Below are positions 34,117 through 43,386 of a stretch of 64,000 nt of DNA, one piece after another; the first letter of the stretch is position 1; every line of letters begins with the position of its first letter. This DNA is from Sphingomonas changbaiensis NBRC 104936 (GTDB lineage: Bacteria > Pseudomonadota > Alphaproteobacteria > Sphingomonadales > Sphingomonadaceae). The stretch lies in contig NZ_BBWU01000021.1 in NCBI RefSeq assembly GCF_000974765.1, positions 62,001 through 126,000 of the forward strand. The letters are read 5' to 3'. The position numbers and the translations under genes are program-made. The notes under the pieces were generated by a model. That model was not told where the DNA came from. It saw nothing but the letters and a program-made list of their open reading frames with translations, and ran no database searches.

Positions 34117-34818
34117 ATGAAACATGTTCGATTGGCCCTGACGTCGCTCGTTGCCACCGCCGCGCTCTGCGGCTGCAGCGAGGCGAACAAGGCTGCGGCA
34201 GCGCCTTCACCGGCGCCGACCGGCAATGCGCAGGCGACCCGGCTGGCGAACTCCGCCAACAACAGCTGGATCACCCTCAATGGCCGCGTGGTCTCGACCA
34301 CGCCCACCAGCTTCGATCTCGATTACGGCTCGGGCCGTGTCACGGTCGAAATGGACGATTGGGACTGGTTCCAGGAAGGCCGCGCCCTGAAACCCGGCGA
34401 CCGGGTGATGGTCAGCGGCAAGATCGACAACGATCTGTTCGAAAAGAAGAAGATCGAAGCCGCGAGCGTCTATGTGAAAAATCTGGGCACCCACTTCTTC
34501 GCCAATCCCAACGACGAAGAGGATCTTGCGCGGACCACGATCGTGATCCCGAACGAGCAGGCCTTTGTGGGCGCATCCGGCGTCGTGACCGAAAAGGAAG
34601 GCACCGAATTCCAGATCGGCGGCCCGACCGGCGTCCGCGTCGACACCGCAAAGATGGCCGATCATCCGCTCGACAACAAAGGGCTGGTGCAAGTGAAGGT
34701 CGGCGATCGGGTTCAGGCCTGGGGCGACTTCAATGCCGATCCCGACGAACGGCCGGAGATCATGGCCAAGGGCCTGATCGTGCTGAGCCAGGATCGCGCC
34801 AAGACCGCACCGGGCTAA
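34117..34818 (+). CDS. Lipoprotein with OB-fold-like repeats
   Basis: A 233-residue lipoprotein: the signal peptide ends in the lipobox LCGC, followed by a Pro/Ala linker. Two similar beta-rich units follow, ITLNGRVVSTTPTSFDLDYG...GDRVMVSGKID and VGASGVVTEKEGTEFQIGG...GDRVQAWGDFN, like small nucleic-acid- or ligand-binding barrels. It begins 12 bp after the EF-hand gene, so the two are probably co-expressed. The TAA stop overlaps the stop of the convergent creatininase gene (CTAA). Function unknown. Confidence 0.78.
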   Translation: MKHVRLALTSLVATAALCGCSEANKAAAAPSPAPTGNAQATRLANSANNSWITLNGRVVSTTPTSFDLDYGSGRVTVEMDDWDWFQEGRALKPGDRVMVSGKIDNDLFEKKKIEAASVYVKNLGTHFFANPNDEEDLARTTIVIPNEQAFVGASGVVTEKEGTEFQIGGPTGVRVDTAKMADHPLDNKGLVQVKVGDRVQAWGDFNADPDERPEIMAKGLIVLSQDRAKTAPG

Positions 34819-35567
34819 GGCCCCTTCAGACGGGCCAGCACGAGGTCGGAAAGGGCCGCGGCCATGGCGGCAAAGCTCTGCTCGCCTTCGGCCGGGCTGG
34901 CCCGGCTCGGGCTGCCGAAATAAGCGTCCGGCCCACCGGCTTCGGCGAAGGTCGTTGCACCCCGGGCGAAAGCCTCGACGAGGCTTGAGGGGTTGTCGGG
35001 AAGCGCCGCCCCGGACGGCCGGTCGACCAGATCGGCGCGGTCGGCGAGCACCAGGCTGGTTTCGAACTGACCCGCGTGGCAGGCGCCGGACTGGAATTCG
35101 TCGGTGAGCGTCGTCGCCAGTGCGCGGCGCGTGAAATCCGGGAACGCGACCGGCAATCCAAGTTCTTCAATCTCCGCCGCTGCCGCGCGCAGCATCGTGA
35201 CGTTGGCCGGGTCGAAATGACTGTTGGCGAACGCGAGGCAGGCAAACCCCTGGTCCTTCAACGCGCGAGCGATATCGATCAGCACGGCCTTGGCCGTCGT
35301 CGCGCCGATCGAGATCGTGCCGGCGAACTCTGACGCATAGCCTGCCGGCGCATAGGCGATGGGCGGCAACACGAAGGCGTGGACGCCTTGCGCGTTCAGC
35401 ATCGCCGCCGCGCGCGTGGCCATGCCGTCGCTGATCACGACATCCGTGCAGAGCGGGAGATGCGGACCGTGCGCTTCCACCGCGCCCAGCGGCAGGATTG
35501 CGGCAACCGGTCCGCCGCTTGCGAGCGCATCGCGCACGGTGGTCCAGGGTCGTTCGCCCAGATTCAT
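34815..35567 (-). CDS. Creatininase-family hydrolase at the end of the anthranilate-type operon
   Basis: A 250-residue member of the creatininase metal-hydrolase family. The metal ligands appear in LPLGAVEAHGPHLPLCTDVV (Glu, His, Asp) with FANSHFDPANV and the later DEFQSGACHAGQFETSL. Family members open cyclic amides or act on formamide-type substrates. It is the last gene of a seven-gene unit and overlaps the ligase stop (ATGA). Here it might hydrolyse a ring or amide formed during 2-aminobenzoyl-CoA breakdown; that is inference. Confidence 0.8.
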   Translation of the reverse strand: MNLGERPWTTVRDALASGGPVAAILPLGAVEAHGPHLPLCTDVVISDGMATRAAAMLNAQGVHAFVLPPIAYAPAGYASEFAGTISIGATTAKAVLIDIARALKDQGFACLAFANSHFDPANVTMLRAAAAEIEELGLPVAFPDFTRRALATTLTDEFQSGACHAGQFETSLVLADRADLVDRPSGAALPDNPSSLVEAFARGATTFAEAGGPDAYFGSPSRASPAEGEQSFAAMAAALSDLVLARLKGP

Positions 35568-37078
35568 GCGAAACGCGCCCTCAGCGCCTTGCGGTCGAGC
35601 TTGTCACGATCGTTGCGGGGCAGCGCCGCCTCGGCGAAGATCACTTCGCGGGGCGCCTTGTAATGGACCAGCCGCTCTCGCGCGAAGGCGATCAGCTCTT
35701 GCGCCAGCTCCGGCGATGCCGTGGCCCCGGCGCGCGGAAAGACGATCGCGACCGGCTTCTCCAGCCCCGCGCCATCCTTCTTCCCCGTCACGCAGCACTC
35801 GCCGACCGCCTGGTGCTGGGCGAGCACGTTCTCCACCTCGATCGGGCTCACATAGATGCCGCCGCTCTTGATCAGGTCGTCACCCCGGCCCTCATAATAC
35901 CAATAGCCGTCTTCATCCTGCCGGAATTTGTCGCCGCTGACGATCCAGCCGCCGCGCAAATGCTCGACCGATTTGGCATAGTCGGCATGATAGCAGAGCG
36001 CTGCCGATGCCCCCTTCAGCCACAGGGTGCCGACATCCCCTTTCGCCACCTCCCCGCCCTCGTCGTCAAGCAGCCGCGCCTGATAGCCGGGCACCAGCCT
36101 GCCCAGGCTGCCGGGCCGGATGTCGTCGGGGTGATTGCTGATGTAGATATGAAAGCTCTCGGCGCTGCCGATACCGTCGATGATCGGGACGCCGAATGCC
36201 CGGTCCCAGCGCGCGTGAAGTTCCTTGGGCAGCGCCTCCCCTGCGCTCCACATGAAGCGGAGGCTGGAGAGATCGGCCGGACGCCCGCTTTCCAGCATCT
36301 TGTGAATGAGGGTCGGCACGCTGGTGAACACGGTCGGCCGGTGCTTTTCGATCAGGTCGAACAGCTGCTCCGCGCTCGGCTGCTCGCGGAACAGCACGGT
36401 GGTCGCGCCGACCGCGAACGGGAACATAAGGTTGGTGCCCGTCGCATAGCCGAAATAAAGCCGCGCGCCGGAGATGGTCACGTCATCCTCGCGCATGCCG
36501 ATGAAGCGTTTGGCATAGACTTCGGTATTGAAGGGGAAGTGCGCGTGCGTATGGACCGCGCCCTTGCTCTTGCCGGTCGAGCCGCTGGTGAACAGCCACA
36601 CCGCCGGATCGTCCCTGCGCGTCGGCCAGGGCTCGGCATCGGGCGCGACGGGGCCGGCGAGCCAGGCGCCGAAATCGGCAATCATGTTGCGTCCGTGCCG
36701 CGACCGCTTCGCCGCCGCACCGAACGCCTCCGCGCTCGCCGCGTCGACGAACGCGAACTGCGGCTTCACATAATCGAGGTAATAGGAATAATCTGCCTCG
36801 GGCAGCAGCGGGTTGATCTGGGTGACCACCGCGCCCGCCTTGATCGCGCCGAACCAGGTATAGGCGAACTCCGGGCAATCGCGCATGCAGACCAACACGC
36901 GCTGTTCGGGCAGCAACCCTTCCGTGATCAGCCGCCGCGCGACGCGGTCCACCTTCTGGCGTAGCTCGGCATAGGAAATCCCCTGGTCCTCGAAGAGCAT
37001 CGCAGTCTTGTCCGGGGCGCCTGCGGCCAGGAACCAGTCGGCCATGTTGAAGTCGTCTGGACAGACGGGATCATCCAT
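35564..37078 (-). CDS. abmG: Aryl-CoA ligase, probable 2-aminobenzoate-CoA ligase
   Basis: A 504-residue adenylate-forming ligase of the benzoate-CoA ligase family. It has the P-loop LFTSGSTGKSKGAVHTH, the A5 motif GIGSAESFHIYISN, A7/A8 SGDKFRQDEDGYWYYEGRGDDLIKSGG and the catalytic Lys in PRNDRDKLDRKALR. ESFHIYISN is the benzoate-CoA-ligase type substrate-pocket sequence. Context with the monooxygenase/reductase fusion directly upstream points to anthranilate as substrate; benzoate or another aminobenzoate cannot be excluded. I chose ATG 37078 (MDDPVCPDDFNMADW), which overlaps the upstream gene by 8 bases. Confidence 0.85.
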   Translation of the reverse strand: MDDPVCPDDFNMADWFLAAGAPDKTAMLFEDQGISYAELRQKVDRVARRLITEGLLPEQRVLVCMRDCPEFAYTWFGAIKAGAVVTQINPLLPEADYSYYLDYVKPQFAFVDAASAEAFGAAAKRSRHGRNMIADFGAWLAGPVAPDAEPWPTRRDDPAVWLFTSGSTGKSKGAVHTHAHFPFNTEVYAKRFIGMREDDVTISGARLYFGYATGTNLMFPFAVGATTVLFREQPSAEQLFDLIEKHRPTVFTSVPTLIHKMLESGRPADLSSLRFMWSAGEALPKELHARWDRAFGVPIIDGIGSAESFHIYISNHPDDIRPGSLGRLVPGYQARLLDDEGGEVAKGDVGTLWLKGASAALCYHADYAKSVEHLRGGWIVSGDKFRQDEDGYWYYEGRGDDLIKSGGIYVSPIEVENVLAQHQAVGECCVTGKKDGAGLEKPVAIVFPRAGATASPELAQELIAFARERLVHYKAPREVIFAEAALPRNDRDKLDRKALRARFA

Positions 37079-39437
37079 GCACCTGCTCCGCATGCTGGTA
37101 GTGGCGGCGATTGGGCCGCGCGCGGGCGTTCAGCTCGGCCTGCTTCTCGTTCGCTTTCTCTGCCTCGCGATACAGCTGATATTCGCCGGAACGCAGCTGC
37201 ACCGGCCAGTCGAGCGGCACGCCGCACGCGGTCCTGACCCCGTAATGCCCCGCCGCCTGCCGGGCGAAGAACGGGTTGTTCAGCATCGGCCGCGCGAGCG
37301 CGCACAGGTCGGCCCGGCCGGCGGCGACGATCGCGTTGATCTGCTCGGGCAGCGTGATGTCGCCGACGGCGATCGTCGGGATATCCGCAGTCAGGCGAAT
37401 GAACTCTGCGAACGGCGTCTGCCACATCCGGCCATAGACCGGCTTCTGCCAGGGCACCGTCTGGCCGGACGAGGCGTGGATGATATCGACGCCCGCCGCC
37501 TTGAACGCTTTCGCAATCGTCGCGAGATCGTCGAGGCACAGGCCGCCCTCGGCCCAGTCGCTGCACGACAGGCGCACGGACATCGGCCGATCCTGAGGCC
37601 ACGCCTCCCGCATCGCCATGAACACTTCGAGCGGGAAGCGCGCGCGGTTGAGCGCGCTGCCGCCATAGTCGTCGGTGCGCCGGTTGGTGAGCGGCGACAG
37701 GAAGCTCGCCAGCAGATAGCCGTGCGCCGCGTGCAGCTCGATCATGTCGAACCCCGCGCGCGCGCCGCGCCGGGCAGAGGCGACGAAGCTGTCGCGAATA
37801 TCGTGCATCGTCGCGCGGTCGAGTTCGATCGGGACCTGCGACGCGTTGTCGAAATAGGGAAGCGGAGACGCCGACCAGACCGGCCAATTGCCTTTTGCCA
37901 TCGGCACATTCTCGCCCAGCTCCGGCACATTGGTCGAGCCCTTGCGGCCGGCGTGGCCGAGTTGGAGCGCGACCTTGGCGGGGGTCGTCGCATGGATGAA
38001 ATCGACCAGCCGCGCCCAGTCGGCTTCCTGTTCGTCATTCCACAAGCCAGTGCAGGCGGTCGTGATCCGTGCGTCGGGCGTGGGGCACGTCATCTCGGTG
38101 AAGATCAGCCCCGCCCCGCCCAGCGCCCGCGCGGTATAATGGCTGAAGTGCCAGGGCGTCAGATCGCCGTCGATCGCGCTGTATTGGGCCATCGGCGCCA
38201 TCACGATCCGGTTGGGCAAAGTCAGCCCGCGCAGATCGAAGGGCGTGAACATCGGCGTCGGCCGGTCGGACGTGTCGCGGCCGGTCCGGCGTTCGTAGCG
38301 GGCGTAGAATTCGTCCTCGACGTGGGCGAGGAACACCGGATCGCGCAAGGCGATATTGTCCCAGGTCAGCGCCTTGGCCCGCGACATCAACGAGAAGGCG
38401 AACTGATAGCGCGGCTTCTCCCAATGAAGCGGCATGTCCTCGAACCAGCGCAGCGACACCTGGGCATTGTGCTGGGTGATCTCGACCGGGGTACGCCTAG
38501 CCTTCTCGTAAGCCTTCTCCACGGCCTCGAGATCGTCACCATGCGCCACGACCGCATCCGACAGCGCCGCCGCGCATTCCATGGCGAGCTTGGTGCCGGA
38601 GCCGATCGACCAGTGCGCAGTCGCTTTGGCGTCGCCCAGCAGCATCAGCTTGCCCTGCCGCCATGACGAGCAGCTGATCGTCTGGAAACTGCGCCAGATC
38701 GAGCGGTTCGTGATGAAGCGGTGGCCCTGCAGCGGCCCGGCGAAGATCGCCTCCAGCGCTCGCGCGCTTTCCTCTTCGCCCATGCCGTCGAAGCCGTGCG
38801 CGGCCCAGCTCTCGGGCGTGGTTTCGATCACCCAGGTCGAATGGCCGGCCTCATACTGATAGGTATGCGCGCAGAAATGGCCCCGGTCCGTCTTCACGAA
38901 GAAGAAGGTGAAGGCATCCAGCGGACGCGCGGAGCCGAGCCAGCAGAATTTGTTGCGCGTCTCGACCGCGCGCACGCCGAACGCGTCCGCATGGGCAGCG
39001 CGGACCGGGCTGTTCACCCCTTCCGCGGCCACAACCAGGTCGCAATCGGCAAAGCGGGTCTCGACCTCGCCCGGATCGACATGGGTCGAGAAATGCAGCC
39101 CGACGCCAAGTTCGGCGCAGCGTCCTTGCAACAGGCTCAGCAACGTTTGGCGCGAGCAGCCGGCAAAGCCGTTGCCGCCGACGACAGTACGGTCGCCGTC
39201 ATGCTCGATGACGATATCGTCCCAATAGGCGAAGCTGGACCGGATCGCGTCGTAGGAATCCGGATCGGCCGACAGGAACTCGTCCAGCGTCTCGTCGGAA
39301 AAGACGACGCCGAAACCGAACGTGTCGTCGGCGCGGTTCTGTTCGTAGACGTCGATCGTGCAATCGGGCAGCCGCTTCTTCGTCAGCAGCGCGAAATAGA
39401 GCCCACCGGGCCCGCCACCGATCACTGCGATCTTCAC
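37071..39437 (-). CDS. abmA: 2-Aminobenzoyl-CoA monooxygenase/reductase (FAD monooxygenase fused to old-yellow-enzyme)
   Basis: A 788-residue two-domain flavoenzyme. The N-terminal half is an aromatic-ring FAD monooxygenase (KIAVIGGGPGGLYFALL; later LMLLGDAKATAHWSIGSGT). From about residue 410 the second half is an NADH:flavin oxidoreductase (TLPNRIVMAPMAQYSA, ELHAAHGYLLASFLSP, NRRTDDYGG). This exact fusion is the 2-aminobenzoyl-CoA monooxygenase/reductase known from Aromatoleum (Azoarcus) evansii, which hydroxylates and then reduces the ring of 2-aminobenzoyl-CoA. Databases often call it 'bifunctional salicylyl-CoA 5-hydroxylase/oxidoreductase'. The GTG start overlaps the ridA-like stop (GTGA). 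Confidence 0.88.
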   Translation of the reverse strand: MKIAVIGGGPGGLYFALLTKKRLPDCTIDVYEQNRADDTFGFGVVFSDETLDEFLSADPDSYDAIRSSFAYWDDIVIEHDGDRTVVGGNGFAGCSRQTLLSLLQGRCAELGVGLHFSTHVDPGEVETRFADCDLVVAAEGVNSPVRAAHADAFGVRAVETRNKFCWLGSARPLDAFTFFFVKTDRGHFCAHTYQYEAGHSTWVIETTPESWAAHGFDGMGEEESARALEAIFAGPLQGHRFITNRSIWRSFQTISCSSWRQGKLMLLGDAKATAHWSIGSGTKLAMECAAALSDAVVAHGDDLEAVEKAYEKARRTPVEITQHNAQVSLRWFEDMPLHWEKPRYQFAFSLMSRAKALTWDNIALRDPVFLAHVEDEFYARYERRTGRDTSDRPTPMFTPFDLRGLTLPNRIVMAPMAQYSAIDGDLTPWHFSHYTARALGGAGLIFTEMTCPTPDARITTACTGLWNDEQEADWARLVDFIHATTPAKVALQLGHAGRKGSTNVPELGENVPMAKGNWPVWSASPLPYFDNASQVPIELDRATMHDIRDSFVASARRGARAGFDMIELHAAHGYLLASFLSPLTNRRTDDYGGSALNRARFPLEVFMAMREAWPQDRPMSVRLSCSDWAEGGLCLDDLATIAKAFKAAGVDIIHASSGQTVPWQKPVYGRMWQTPFAEFIRLTADIPTIAVGDITLPEQINAIVAAGRADLCALARPMLNNPFFARQAAGHYGVRTACGVPLDWPVQLRSGEYQLYREAEKANEKQAELNARARPNRRHYQHAEQVHG

Positions 39438-39826
39438 GGCACCACCGCCGTCGTTTCGATCTCGACCCGGGCGGCGTCCTCGACCAGCCCGGAGACCTCG
39501 ACCACCGCCATGCAGGGGAACACCTTCCCCAGCACCTCGCGCCACGCCTCGCCGATCGCCGCGCGGCTGGCGAGATATTCGCGCTTGTCGGTCACGTAGC
39601 AGGTCATGCGCACGATATCGGTGGGCTCGGCGCCGCCTTCGGTCAGGATCGCGCGCGTATTGAGCAAGGCCTGACGGAACTGGCCGGCGAGGTCTGCATG
39701 CTCGAACTCTTCGTTTGCGTTCCAGCCGATTACGCCGGCGGTGAACACCATCCGCCCGCTCGCGGCGATCCCGTTCGCATAGCCTTTGGGGCGCGGCCAG
39801 CCGGACGGTTGAAGCACCTCGCGCAT
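39434..39826 (-). CDS. RidA-family (YjgF/YER057c) protein
   Basis: A 130-residue RidA-fold protein, starting MREVLQPSGWPRPKGYANGI with the typical FTAGVIGWNANEEF, DIVRMTCYVTDKREYL and FPCMAVVEVSGLVEDAARVEIE. RidA proteins hydrolyse imines and enamines. The product of the neighbouring fused flavoenzyme is an enamine-like 2-amino-5-oxocyclohexenyl-CoA, so a deaminating role is attractive but unproven. The usual RidA Arg that binds the substrate carboxylate is not obvious (…GLVEDAARVEIET), so this may be a subfamily with another substrate. ATG 39826 lies two bases after the hydratase stop. Confidence 0.85.
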   Translation of the reverse strand: MREVLQPSGWPRPKGYANGIAASGRMVFTAGVIGWNANEEFEHADLAGQFRQALLNTRAILTEGGAEPTDIVRMTCYVTDKREYLASRAAIGEAWREVLGKVFPCMAVVEVSGLVEDAARVEIETTAVVP

Positions 39827-39828
39827 GC

Positions 39829-40638
39829 TCAATCCCCCTCGAACACCGGCTTCTCTTTCGCGACGAACGCGTTGTAGGCCCGCTCGAAATCCCTGGTCTG
39901 CATGCAGATCGCCTGCGCCTGGGCCTCCGCCTCGATCGCCGTCTCCAGGCTCATATTCCATTCCATGTTGAGCTGGTTCTTGGTCATGCCGTTCGCGAAG
40001 CTGGGGCCCGTCGCGATCCGGCGTGCCGCCTCCATCGCGTGCTCATCCAGCCGATCGGCGGGCACCACCTCGTTGAACCAGCCCCACGCCTTTCCTTCCT
40101 CTGCGCTGAAGCTGCGGCCGAAGAACAGCAGCTCGCTCGCCCGGCCGTGACCGATGATCCGCGGCAGCATCGCGCACGCGCCCATGTCGCAGCCGGCCAG
40201 CCCGACGCGATTGAACAGGAAGGCGGTCTTCGCTTCCGGGCTCGCACAGCGAAGATCGGATGCCATCGCGATGATTGCGCCGGCGCCCACGCAAACGCCG
40301 TCGACCGCGGCGACGATCGGCTGCGGGCAGGCGCGCATCGCCTTGACCAGATCGCCGGTCATGCGCGTGAAATCGAGCAGTTCCGGCATCGACATGCGAG
40401 TCAGCGGCCTGATGATCTCGTGCACGTCGCCGCCCGAGCAGAAATTGCCGCCGGTGCTGCCGAACACCACCGCTTTCACGTTTCGCGCATACGCAAGCGC
40501 CCGGAACGCGTCGCGCAACTCTGCATAGGACTCGAAGGTCAGCGGGTTCTTGCGCTCGGGTCGGTCGAGCGTGATCCGGGCGACGCCGGCATCGAAGGAC
40601 CAGCGAAAGTGCTGGGGCGAAAAGCTCTCCGGATTCAT
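39829..40638 (-). CDS. Enoyl-CoA hydratase/isomerase family protein
   Basis: A 269-residue crotonase-fold protein. The oxyanion-hole motifs are [18 protein letters not shown] and [17 protein letters not shown], followed by [18 protein letters not shown], typical of hydratases of CoA-linked aromatic degradation. The start overlaps the MarR stop (ATGA). In this operon it would hydrate or open the reduced ring of the 2-aminobenzoyl-CoA product. Confidence 0.88.
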
Positions 40639-41084
40639 GCCGCTTCCTTTTCGGTCGGCGGCACGATCCCGGCAAGCAGCCGGCGCAGTGCCGCGATATC
40701 GCTTGAACCCAGGCCCGCAAAGGCGGAGTCGATCCAGCGCCGGTTCTCCGCCGCCATTGCCGCAAATCGAGCGTGGCCCTCGTCGCTCAACCGGAAGATC
40801 GCGACCCGGCCGTCATCGGGATCGCGTGCACGCTCGACCAGCCCGGCCGAGACCAGAGGGGCCGTGACCTGGGTCGTATTGCCTTCGGTCACCCTGAGCC
40901 ACGCGGTCAGTTCGCCCGCGCTCAATCCAGCCTCGCCCGCCCGGTCCAGGGCGGCGAGCACATCAAATCGCGCGATCGACAGCCCGAAGCGCTGCCTCAA
41001 GCGCATGTCGACCCCCTTCTTGATCGCGTTGGCGGTCCCAAGCAGCGCCAGCCAGGCGCGGAGTGCGTCGCGATCATCGCTCAT
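40635..41084 (-). CDS. MarR-family regulator of the anthranilate-type operon
   Basis: A 149-residue MarR-type winged-helix protein: [31 protein letters not shown], the recognition region [32 protein letters not shown] and the C-terminal dimer helices. MarR proteins in aromatic-CoA operons commonly respond to the aryl-CoA ester. It is embedded in the operon (ATGA overlaps on both sides), so it should control its own synthesis, perhaps at the inverted repeat 41819-41834. Confidence 0.88.
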
Positions 41085-41809
41085 GCGGATTCGCCGCCGT
41101 CGATCGGGATGGCTTGCCCGTTCACGCCGGCGGCCGCGTCGCTCGCCAGCCAGAGCGCGGCCGCCGCGACTTCTTCCGGCGCGATCAATCGTCCCATCGG
41201 ATTGGCCTTGGCGAAGGAGGCTTCCGTATCTGTCCTGCCCGTCTTCGCCGTGACCCGGTCCATGGCCTCGCGCAGCATCGGCGTGTCGGTATAGCCGGGG
41301 CAGATCGCATTCGCGGTTACGCCCGTCCTTGCCAGCTCCAGCGCAAGCGAGCGCACCATGCCCAACGCGCCATGCTTGGCTGCCGCATAGGCGCCCGCAT
41401 AGGCATAGCCCTTGATCGCCGCCGTCGAGCCGATCGCGATGAACCGTCCCCAGCCGCGCTCGACCATCGGCGGGATCGCCGCCCGCGCGCACAGCCAGAC
41501 GCTGGTCAGGTTGAGCGCGATCATCTGGTCCCAATCCGCAGGCGCCATCTTCAACAGCGGCGCAGTCACTGCGCCGCCGGCATTGGCGACGAAGACGTCG
41601 ACCGGCGGAACGGATGCGATCGCGCGCTCCACCGCGGCGCCATCGCAGACGTCGAGCTCGACATGCGCAAAGCCGCTTGCTTCCAGCGAAGCACGGTTCC
41701 GTCCGGCCACCCAGACGTCGTGACCGGCATCGGCGAAGCCACGGGCGATCGCGAGTCCGATCCCGCTTCCGCCGCCGGTCACCAGCACGCGTCTGCTCTG
41801 CCCTGCCAT
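41081..41809 (-). CDS. Short-chain dehydrogenase/reductase, probable 3-hydroxyacyl-CoA dehydrogenase
   Basis: A 242-residue classical SDR: cofactor motif VTGGGSGIGLAIARGF, FVANAGGAV, active-site Ser in AIGSTAAIKG, and YAGAYAAAKHG (Tyr-x3-Lys). It is the first gene of the operon and probably oxidises a beta-hydroxyacyl-CoA formed from the ring. ATG 41809 directly begins the Rossmann fold; a longer frame would run into the regulatory region. Confidence 0.87.
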   Translation of the reverse strand: MAGQSRRVLVTGGGSGIGLAIARGFADAGHDVWVAGRNRASLEASGFAHVELDVCDGAAVERAIASVPPVDVFVANAGGAVTAPLLKMAPADWDQMIALNLTSVWLCARAAIPPMVERGWGRFIAIGSTAAIKGYAYAGAYAAAKHGALGMVRSLALELARTGVTANAICPGYTDTPMLREAMDRVTAKTGRTDTEASFAKANPMGRLIAPEEVAAAALWLASDAAAGVNGQAIPIDGGESA

Positions 41810-41818
41810 GCCCGTCAG

Positions 41819-41834
41819 CCTAAGATGTTTTAGG
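41819..41834. promoter_or_regulatory. Inverted repeat, candidate MarR operator
   Basis: CCTAAGATGTTTTAGG is a 5-6-5 inverted repeat located 10 bp upstream of the operon's first start codon and 11 bp before the divergent kinase start. It is AT-rich in a GC-rich background, as MarR operators tend to be. Confidence 0.5.
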
Positions 41835-41844
41835 ATTAAAGCAA

Positions 41845-43386
41845 ATGGGCGCCAACTTGCGTCGGCTGCGTTGGGTATGCACAAGCGGGTGCGCCGATGC
41901 GATCAAGTGCAAGTCTTTGATGCTGAACTTTCTTCAGCCTGTGCTCGAAACCGCGTTGGACGCGGTGGTCGCCATGGCACCGGATGGTACCGTCGCCGCC
42001 TGGAACGCGGTGGCAGAGCAGGTCTTCGGCTGGACGGAAGCGGAAGTGCTCGGCAGGCCGCTCGCCGATCTGATCATCCCGCAGCAGCATCGGGAGGCGC
42101 ATCGAGCGGGACTGGAGCGTTACAATCGGACCGGCCGGGAGACCATTCTCAACCGGCGGATCGAGATCACCGCGGTCGACCGGGCGGGCCGGGAGTTTCC
42201 GGTCGAGCTGTCGATCACGACCGCGCCGGACCGGCTGCTGTTCATCGGATTCCTCCGCGACATCACCGCCAGGCGCGAAGCCGAAGCGCGACTGCAGCGG
42301 CAAGCGCGCGAAGCCCAATTGCTATTCGAAGTCGCGAGCCTGGCGACGTCCACGAATTCGTTCGAAGACGCGCTGCGCGCCTGCCTCAACGCGATCTGCG
42401 ATCTCACCGGCTGGCCACTCGGTCACGCCCTTCTGCTGATCGGCACCGAGCTCGTCTCGATGTCGGTCTGGCATGACGACACGAAGGGGGCCGCCGACGC
42501 ACTGAGGGAAGCGACCGAGCAGATCCGGTTTACGTCCGGCGTCGGGTTGCCGGGCATGGTGCTTGCGGCTGGAGAGCCGATCTGGATCGCCGACGCGGCC
42601 GAAGCGTCCCAATTCCCCCGCAAGGGCCTGGGCCTCGGCGCCGCCTTCGGGTTTCCGCTGAAGAGCGAGGGCCGCATCATCGCGGTGCTGGAATTCTTCA
42701 CCTACGACAGGGTTCGCCCCGATCCGGAACTGATGCTGGTCGTGCGCACGCTTGGCGAGCAGGTCGGCCGGGTGCTCGAACGGAAGCGCACCGAGGATCA
42801 CCAGGAACTCTTGCTCCACGAGCTCAATCACCGCGTCAAGAACATGCTTTCGATCGTCCAGAGCGTGGCGATGCAGACGTTCAAGGGCGCGGCGCCCCGC
42901 GAGGCGATCAGGACGTTCGAGACCCGGCTGGGCGCACTCGCAGCCGCGCACGACCTGTTGATCGCCGAGAATTGGGAAGCGGCGTCGCTGCAGGAGATCG
43001 TGAGCAAGGCGGGGCTGGGCTGCGGCGCCGACCGGGACCGGATCAGGACGGAGGGTCCGGAGCTTCGCCTCCATGCGCGCGCCGCCGTGTCCCTGTCGCT
43101 CGCGTTGCATGAACTGTGCACCAACGCGGTCAAATATGGGGCGTTATCGACTGAAGGCGGACGCATTCATATCGCGTGGCACATCGTGCACGACGGCACA
43201 CGGCTGTGTCTCGTCTGGCAGGAACAGGGCGGACCGGCGGTCCAGCCCCCGCAAGCCCGCGGCTTCGGCAGCCGGATGATCGAGCGCGCGCTCGCCGCGG
43301 AGCTGGGCGGCAAGGTCGAACTCCACTTCCTGCCGGAGGGGCTCCGATGCGTGATCGAAGCCCCGTTGCCGGCCGAGGATCGCTAG
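41845..43386 (+). CDS. HWE-type sensor histidine kinase (PAS-GAF)
   Basis: A cytoplasmic sensor of up to 513 residues: PAS domain (LETALDAVVAMAPDGTVAAW), GAF domain (about residues 150-300, FEVASLATSTNSFEDALRA), then a HWE/HisKA_2 transmitter with H-box HELNHRVKNMLSIVQSVA, N-box LHELCTNAVKYGAL and the WQEQGGP sequence that names the HWE group. No membrane segment is seen. Kinases of this group feed the general stress response in sphingomonads; no receiver partner is adjacent. ATG 41845 has AGGA upstream; an alternative ATG at 41920 starts closer to the PAS domain but lacks a ribosome site. Confidence 0.88.
   Translation: MGANLRRLRWVCTSGCADAIKCKSLMLNFLQPVLETALDAVVAMAPDGTVAAWNAVAEQVFGWTEAEVLGRPLADLIIPQQHREAHRAGLERYNRTGRETILNRRIEITAVDRAGREFPVELSITTAPDRLLFIGFLRDITARREAEARLQRQAREAQLLFEVASLATSTNSFEDALRACLNAICDLTGWPLGHALLLIGTELVSMSVWHDDTKGAADALREATEQIRFTSGVGLPGMVLAAGEPIWIADAAEASQFPRKGLGLGAAFGFPLKSEGRIIAVLEFFTYDRVRPDPELMLVVRTLGEQVGRVLERKRTEDHQELLLHELNHRVKNMLSIVQSVAMQTFKGAAPREAIRTFETRLGALAAAHDLLIAENWEAASLQEIVSKAGLGCGADRDRIRTEGPELRLHARAAVSLSLALHELCTNAVKYGALSTEGGRIHIAWHIVHDGTRLCLVWQEQGGPAVQPPQARGFGSRMIERALAAELGGKVELHFLPEGLRCVIEAPLPAEDR

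Follow-up and report, generated by a model that had tools for sequence, protein, structure and literature searches.

The window analysed here is a stretch of 64,000 nucleotides from Sphingomonas changbaiensis NBRC 104936 (contig NZ_BBWU01000021.1, positions 62,001 to 126,000), and at 34815-41809 it carries an operon of seven open genes, all read in one direction on the minus strand from 41809 to 34815. The operon is a variant of the known anthraniloyl-CoA cluster, and its unusual part is the last gene pair, which encodes an AMP-forming aryl-CoA ligase (LIG2) and a creatininase-family metallohydrolase (CREAT). Our reading, with a probability of roughly 0.55, is that the operon serves the CoA-dependent breakdown of anthranilate derived from tryptophan, with CREAT as a formamidase. 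The features are as follows.

41081-41809, minus strand: SDR-family oxidoreductase, 242 aa; first gene of the operon, a common neighbour of the fusion in relatives
40635-41084, minus strand: MarR-family regulator, 149 aa; a common member of fusion clusters
39829-40638, minus strand: enoyl-CoA hydratase (ECH) family protein, 269 aa; NF006107, 476.1 bits (cut-off 330)
39434-39826, minus strand: Rid-family protein, 130 aa; Met at the aligned RidA-Arg position
37071-39437, minus strand: flavin monooxygenase/old-yellow-enzyme (OYE) fusion, 788 aa, GTG start; proposed anthraniloyl-CoA monooxygenase/reductase
35564-37078, minus strand: AMP-forming aryl-CoA ligase LIG2, 504 aa; TIGR02262, 433.9 bits (cut-off 375.25)
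34815-35567, minus strand: creatininase-family metallohydrolase CREAT, 250 aa; PF02633; proposed aryl-formamide hydrolase
41828-41840, minus strand: operator-like 13-mer TTTAATCCTAAAA upstream of SDR; candidate MarR site

A preliminary description had reported a seven-gene, same-direction operon with nearly all junctions overlapping, and this was borne out. Overlaps of 4 bases were found at the SDR/MarR, MarR/ECH, Rid/fusion, and LIG2/CREAT junctions and one of 8 bases at fusion/LIG2, while ECH and Rid are separated by a 2-base gap, giving overlaps at five of six junctions. The gene family names proposed there agree in outline with Pfam and NCBIfam. The gene order SDR-MarR-ECH-(ACAD)-Rid-fusion-LIG2-CREAT, in which ACAD denotes an acyl-CoA dehydrogenase, recurs in S. 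horti (L118), where the seven window genes have counterparts at 77-90% identity, and in S. cavernae (L124; 72-88% identity), there lacking ACAD. ACAD lies between ECH and Rid in S. horti, a relative from the same genus (L033/L118). None was found in the window operon or the S. cavernae locus, and the best ACAD homologue in the window genome is only 37% identical. A thioesterase was not found in the window, S. horti, or S. cavernae loci.

Clusters around the fusion and the exchanged ligase

The fusion scored 965.7 bits against NF006101 (bifunctional salicylyl-CoA 5-hydroxylase/oxidoreductase), under the cut-off of 1078. A search of the window genome with the fusion returned just two OYE-half matches and no second full-length copy, and a second full fusion in this genome was thus rejected. 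Matches with E of 1e-150 or better occurred in 97 of the 296 genomes of the window's order, and the fusion was also present in 94 plasmid records from Paracoccus to Arthrobacter and Haladaptatus, with Actinobacteria, Deinococcus, and haloarchaea among them; the fusion is therefore not confined mainly to a few beta-proteobacteria, as had been supposed.

About 18 kb around the fusion (less at contig ends) was taken from 40 genomes of the order and searched by tblastn at 1e-6. Homologues were found of MarR in 30 loci, ECH in 29, Rid in 27, ACAD in 26, SDR in 25, a 4HBT thioesterase in 23, and creatininase in 1, and a ligase of about 540 aa, termed LIG1, recurs in them. MarR and Rid had been put forward as marks of a variant pathway; both are common in the fusion clusters of relatives and both stand in the Paracoccus denitrificans run, and they were rejected as novelties. 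The creatininase homologue, also named there, is the truly unusual one, with its single occurrence.

Tryptophan 2,3-dioxygenase (TDO) and kynureninase were found in five of the 40 loci (L047, L048, L054, L058, and L059), beside clusters that carry LIG1, and in L047 and L048 the kynurenine formamidase KynB lies between them as a classical TDO-KynB-kynureninase set. An isatin-hydrolase-like gene was present in 11 of the 40 and an indolepyruvate-oxidoreductase-like gene in 12. Since TDO, kynureninase, and isatin-hydrolase-like genes feed 2-aminobenzoyl compounds, their presence beside the fusion indicates that the cluster fits such compounds. The earlier assignment to CoA-dependent anthranilate breakdown accordingly stands in so far as the family of anthraniloyl-CoA clusters, with its kynureninase/TDO or isatin-hydrolase-like neighbours, is the best fit; it does not extend to the substrate of the ligase, which cannot be told from the sequence. 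In Cupriavidus, a 2-aminobenzoyl-CoA gene cluster is vital for anthranilate degradation by proteomics and genetics, according to excerpts of a review (PMC6221969).

At nine of the order loci (L045, L049-L051, L061, L063, L069, L070, and L072), the isatin-hydrolase-like gene (PF04199) and an indolepyruvate-oxidoreductase-like pair (PRK08312) adjoin the fusion, and at L045, L061, L063, L069, and L070 a ligase was not found in the locus. These loci suggest a route from isatin through isatinate to anthraniloyl-CoA, which would be made directly by the oxidoreductase.

LIG2 showed 33.3% identity to the verified anthranilate-CoA ligase of the Arthrobacter plasmid pAL1 and 36% to LIG1, and LIG1 is itself 55.6% identical to the pAL1 ligase. 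Judging by these values, LIG2 is not orthologous to either the verified enzyme or the usual ligase of the cluster. Excerpts of PMC3534580 state that the pAL1 ligase gene was expressed and that its product makes anthraniloyl-CoA. Both LIG2 and CREAT occurred in the same three of the 296 order genomes, namely that of the window (G000), one of the same genus (G272), and G047, and were adjacent in each. In these genomes, the LIG2-CREAT pair takes the place of the usual ligase beside two different fusion clades. The run in G047 reads fusion-SDR-MarR-ECH-ACAD-thioesterase-Rid-LIG2-CREAT, which is the gene order of Paracoccus except that the LIG2-CREAT pair stands where its ligase would be, and the G047 fusion belongs to another clade, being 47% identical to that of the window. 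No LIG2 relative was detected in the plasmid records at 1e-100.

CREAT exceeded the PF02633 cut-off (170.9 versus 31.3 bits) and scored under the NCBIfam cut-offs for creatininase (TIGR04448; 77.1 of 235), MftE (TIGR03964; 102.9 of 172), and IolN (NF041098; 19.8 bits, E 3.4e-4, cut-off 245), so that its identification as a true creatininase, MftE, or IolN was rejected. It gave no NCBIfam match to KynB. The positions E31, H33, D42, H117, and D119, presumably the metal ligands by comparison with creatininase structures and by the alignment, were invariant across the alignment, which comprised 51 relatives from an initial set of 58 sequences; D119 corresponds to Glu122 of creatininase. The predicted structure had a pLDDT of 96, and its best fold matches were creatininase (Foldseek E 1.2e-15).

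A scan of one genome per species (84,980 species) returned 332 CREAT relatives; locus counts refer to the best 80 of these, many of which are cut by contig ends. The closest were from Sphingomonas (70-80% identity), followed by a Proteobacteria metagenome-assembled genome (MAG; 75%), a Hyphomonadaceae MAG (67%), and three Planctomycetota (62-63%), with more distant relatives (44-53%) in Gemmatimonadota, Acidobacteriota, Eremiobacterota, Eisenbacteria, and others. By script, LIG2 was counted within 4 kb at 54 loci, SDR at 53, ECH and Rid at 52 each, ACAD at 40, and the fusion, TDO, and a diverged kynureninase termed KynU2 at 27 each; KynB was found at 0 of the 80. Many of the distant loci, in Gemmatimonadota and relatives, carry LIG2 (divergent)-CREAT-SDR-Rid-ECH-ACAD-fusion-TDO-KynU2 as one cluster. 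Among the 25 non-alphaproteobacterial loci with adequate flanks (at least 5 kb left and at least 9 kb right), the fusion, scored as a minimum of 40% identity in each half, is present in 15, and TDO and KynU2 occur in these 15 and no others. One stop codon lies within the CREAT reading of a Thermoanaerobaculia MAG (L158:1370-2110).

On a tree of the 68 fusions with a near full-length, stop-free reading, the CREAT label required five changes, at least four of them being forced by well-supported branches, against an average of 21.8 for shuffled labels. The association of CREAT with the fusion was therefore gained or lost on more than one occasion.

Tryptophan dioxygenase, KynU2, and the lack of KynB over the cut-off

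In all three order genomes with CREAT, TDO stands beside KynU2 (in the window genome at L097:7789-9931, G000:C15), and no match to the classical kynureninase (TIGR01814) or KynB (TIGR03035) was found in any of the three. The comparison genomes with LIG1 (G205, G018, and G114) have TDO, KynB, and the classical kynureninase. KynU2 proteins are 386-400 aa long, share 22-27% identity with two classical kynureninases, and retain the PLP-lysine motif GYK. The KynU2 profile matched Pseudomonas kynureninase 1qz9 over nearly its full length (E 2.3e-23), and 1qz9 was also the top fold match of the predicted structure, with cysteine-desulfurase-type enzymes close behind; no NCBIfam match was obtained at 1e-10. 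On this profile and fold evidence, KynU2 is a distant kynureninase homologue. It was found in 47 of the 296 order genomes, including the three with CREAT (two further weak matches of 28-30% identity, G006 and G227, were left out of an initial 49), and a random draw of three genomes would all carry KynU2 with a probability of about 0.004 if kinship is ignored.

TDO and KynB were each searched for in 50 of the 80 CREAT genomes, chosen by hand, the TDO set being genomes without TDO in the locus and the KynB set a mix of alphaproteobacteria, TDO-KynU2 loci, and long-flank loci. The first search gave 48 genomes with TDO over the Pfam cut-off elsewhere, one with a fragment under the cut-off, and one with none. 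Together with the 27 in-locus cases and S. horti/G272, TDO is present in at least 76 of the 80 genomes. In the second search, none of the 50 genomes yielded a KynB over the cut-off (223 bits). When the TDO surroundings were fetched from 20 CREAT genomes, TDO-KynU2 was present in 13, including all 10 from the Sphingomonas side (L228-L237), and KynB in 0 of the 20. The preliminary description had missed the swapped ligase with CREAT, the absent ACAD, and this tracking of TDO by CREAT.

Proposed pathway and its alternatives

In the proposed pathway, TDO and KynU2 would convert tryptophan to anthranilate, or its N-formyl form, plus alanine, and CREAT, acting as a metal-dependent formamidase in place of the classical KynB, would take off the formyl group. 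LIG2 would then make anthraniloyl-CoA, which the fusion would dearomatise by monooxygenation and reduction, and further conversion by the SDR, ECH-family, and Rid proteins would follow a beta-oxidation-like route, with MarR as the regulator. Assignment of the pathway to anthraniloyl-CoA breakdown appears fairly safe. The formamidase role of CREAT is a good and testable proposal with odds at or slightly above even, since the TDO route to anthranilate needs a deformylation and CREAT is an unassigned hydrolase fixed to these clusters. Such chemistry has a precedent in the creatininase family, because BrbF of Sinorhizobium releases formate from an amino-formylamino-pyrimidine, as excerpts of PMC9478397 describe. 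From gene content, synteny, co-occurrence, metal-ligand positions, and predicted fold we infer the substrates and all of the reactions, including acceptance of anthranilate by LIG2, action of CREAT on a formamide, and, from co-occurrence, the hydrolysis of N-formylkynurenine. Titles and abstract openings of the papers searched contained nothing that connects creatininase-family proteins to kynurenine formamidase or to the breakdown of anthranilate; 'creatininase' co-occurs with 'kynurenine formamidase' or 'anthranilate' in PMC6374422 and PMC8745165.

The formamidase step could take two forms. CREAT may hydrolyse N-formylkynurenine, so that KynU2 takes kynurenine. Otherwise, KynU2 may cleave N-formylkynurenine to N-formylanthranilate and alanine, with CREAT deformylating just before or after CoA activation. 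This inverted kynurenine route, in which the formyl group is kept through the kynureninase step, seems doubtful. It would explain the two fixed gene pairs, TDO-KynU2 and LIG2-CREAT, the lack of KynB over the cut-off in all 20 KynU2 order genomes tested, and the fact that kynureninase, formamidase, and ligase all differ together from the usual set. Of 17 further KynU2 genomes that have the fusion and lack CREAT, two (G151 and G165) carry the usual ligase in the fusion locus, which weighs against the ligase part of this route. Formyl retention as a necessity for every KynU2 genome was rejected on the same two genomes. In the other 15, a ligase was not found in the fetched stretch, some stretches being cut by contig ends.

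Several observations weigh against the tryptophan-derived pathway with CREAT as a formamidase. The nearest solved relatives of LIG2 are benzoate-CoA ligases, with the anthranilate-CoA ligase 4wv3 seventh on the list, and the window-genome TDO, over the Pfam cut-off, remains under that of NCBIfam (344.6 of 390.7 bits). LIG2-CREAT occurs without a fusion in the fetched flanks (mostly 8-10 kb) at L120-L123 and L125-L129, loci that belong to S. leidyi, S. kyeonggiensis, other Sphingomonas, and a Hyphomonadaceae MAG. At the three Planctomycetota TDO loci, the neighbour is a kynureninase-like protein of just 27-29% identity, and in G312, G319, G321, and G328 no KynU2 or kynureninase lies near TDO. 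In 11 of the 50 CREAT genomes searched, KynB-like proteins scored 134-193 bits and are possibly real. TDO may also be common in these phyla regardless of CREAT, and genes taken from one clade are not independent. Furthermore, 44 of the 47 order genomes with KynU2 have no CREAT match, and none of the 20 KynU2 order genomes tested, the three CREAT genomes among them, has a KynB over the cut-off; the formamidase step can therefore be met in other ways or is dispensable. Clustering of open reading frames within 5 kb of TDO-KynU2 in CREAT-free genomes revealed, beyond KynU2, nothing present in more than 7 of 16 loci (families not assigned). A motif scan gave no sign that TDO-KynU2 is co-regulated with the operon, TTTAATCCTAAAA-like sites being present in 0 of the 13 TDO loci scanned.

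CREAT could instead belong to the lower pathway, where after the fusion it would open the alicyclic ring or hydrolyse a CoA-bound enamine or diketone in the manner of IolN, reportedly a creatininase-family ring hydrolase with C-C chemistry. Its place inside the fusion cluster in 15 of the 25 adequately flanked non-alphaproteobacterial loci agrees with such a role, as does the fact that neither the window nor S. cavernae shows the ACAD or the thioesterase that usual clusters have. The weak IolN match points the same way, although at 19.8 bits (E 3.4e-4) it is far below the cut-off of 245. Usual clusters, however, manage without a creatininase (39 of the 40 order loci), and Sphingomonas genomes with LIG2-CREAT and no fusion found nearby nevertheless have TDO-KynU2. 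S. horti has CREAT and ACAD, and G047 has CREAT, ACAD, and thioesterase, on which grounds CREAT as a replacement for ACAD or thioesterase was rejected; we consider a lower-pathway role unlikely. There is a still smaller chance, only slight in our view, that CREAT is a passenger moving with the ligase gene and has no fixed pathway role, for example a general amidase placed by history. The two-gene LIG2-CREAT unit standing apart from the other genes in S. leidyi-type genomes would suit a passenger, but CREAT turns up repeatedly, on separate branches of the tree of fusions and in several phyla, TDO accompanies it in at least 76 of the best 80 of 332 genomes, and the catalytic positions are invariant in all 51 aligned sequences.

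The substrate of the operon might also be salicylate or another 2-substituted or otherwise substituted benzoate, degraded through its CoA ester (salicylyl-CoA to gentisyl-CoA), with CREAT hydrolysing an amide precursor. The NCBI family name of the fusion refers to this very reaction, yet the fusion scored 965.7 bits against a cut-off of 1078 for that model. LIG2 does lie in the benzoate-CoA-ligase family, closest to the BadA type among solved structures; the upstream genes of related clusters (TDO, kynureninase, KynU2, and the isatin-hydrolase-like gene) point rather to 2-aminobenzoyl compounds, and the usual ligase family includes the anthranilate-CoA ligase verified according to excerpts of PMC3534580. 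Taken together, a salicylate-type substrate is improbable.

If the tryptophan-derived pathway with CREAT as a formamidase is correct, it would give a function to a creatininase-like subfamily of Sphingomonas, Gemmatimonadota, Acidobacteriota, Planctomycetota, and others, and would define a type of kynurenine formamidase unrelated to KynB. It would also mean that a single cluster, known here largely from metagenome-assembled genomes, leads from tryptophan to a dearomatised CoA ester. The window operon and the sister lineage G205, which has the usual ligase, KynB, and the classical kynureninase, would then form a natural exchange experiment.

Flanking features and comparison with known systems

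The operon looks self-contained because it is bounded by a divergent PAS-GAF-HWE sensor histidine kinase at 41845-43386 (start at about 41845) and by a convergent OB-fold/DUF5666 protein that ends at 34818. The element TTTAATCCTAAAA, a candidate MarR site, precedes the operons of S. horti and S. cavernae in identical form, and matches with 1-2 mismatches, counted irrespective of their position relative to genes, occur in some other fusion loci. The Rid protein scored under the cut-off of the RidA model TIGR00004 (50.4 of 106.25 bits). At the position of the RidA catalytic Arg, presumably residue 105 of Salmonella RidA, the window protein and all 23 of the cluster Rid proteins inspected in relatives have Met (P-x-M-[AST]), aligned by eye. 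These proteins may form a Rid subfamily of their own that serves the pathway in some other role.

The 2-aminobenzoyl-CoA pathway cluster of Azoarcus/Aromatoleum evansii was reportedly described by Schuhle et al. in 2001. Set side by side by description, it has, like the window, a fusion enzyme, a ligase, and beta-oxidation-type enzymes, and presumably also MarR and a Rid-type 'translation inhibitor'. The window differs in its non-orthologous ligase type and added CREAT and in having neither a transporter gene nor ACAD in the operon. Excerpts of PMC4539516 review the A. evansii pathway. The P. denitrificans plasmid NZ_CP035092.1 carries fusion-SDR-MarR-ECH-ACAD-thioesterase-Rid-ligase, a single run as in the window, with protein identities to the window of 47% for the fusion, 70% for ECH, and 53% for Rid. 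Its ligase is of the usual type (54% identical to LIG1 and 34% to LIG2), and unlike the window, it has ACAD, thioesterase, and an ABC transporter, with creatininase absent in the stretch. In Arthrobacter sp. Rue61a pAL1 (NC_009453.1), the fusion (46% identity) likewise adjoins a ligase, with a Rid gene nearby, whereas this ligase, the verified one in excerpts of PMC3534580, is only 33% identical to LIG2.

The classical KynB (TIGR03035) and kynureninase (TIGR01814) catalyse the same reactions as those proposed for CREAT and KynU2, whereas CREAT has no KynB match and the three CREAT order genomes have no TIGR01814 match. BrbF of S. meliloti riboflavin synthesis, likened by family, has the creatininase fold family in common with CREAT; its substrate in excerpts of PMC9478397 is a pyrimidine nucleotide, unlike that proposed for CREAT, and its hydrolysis of a formamide is the chemistry that CREAT would perform.

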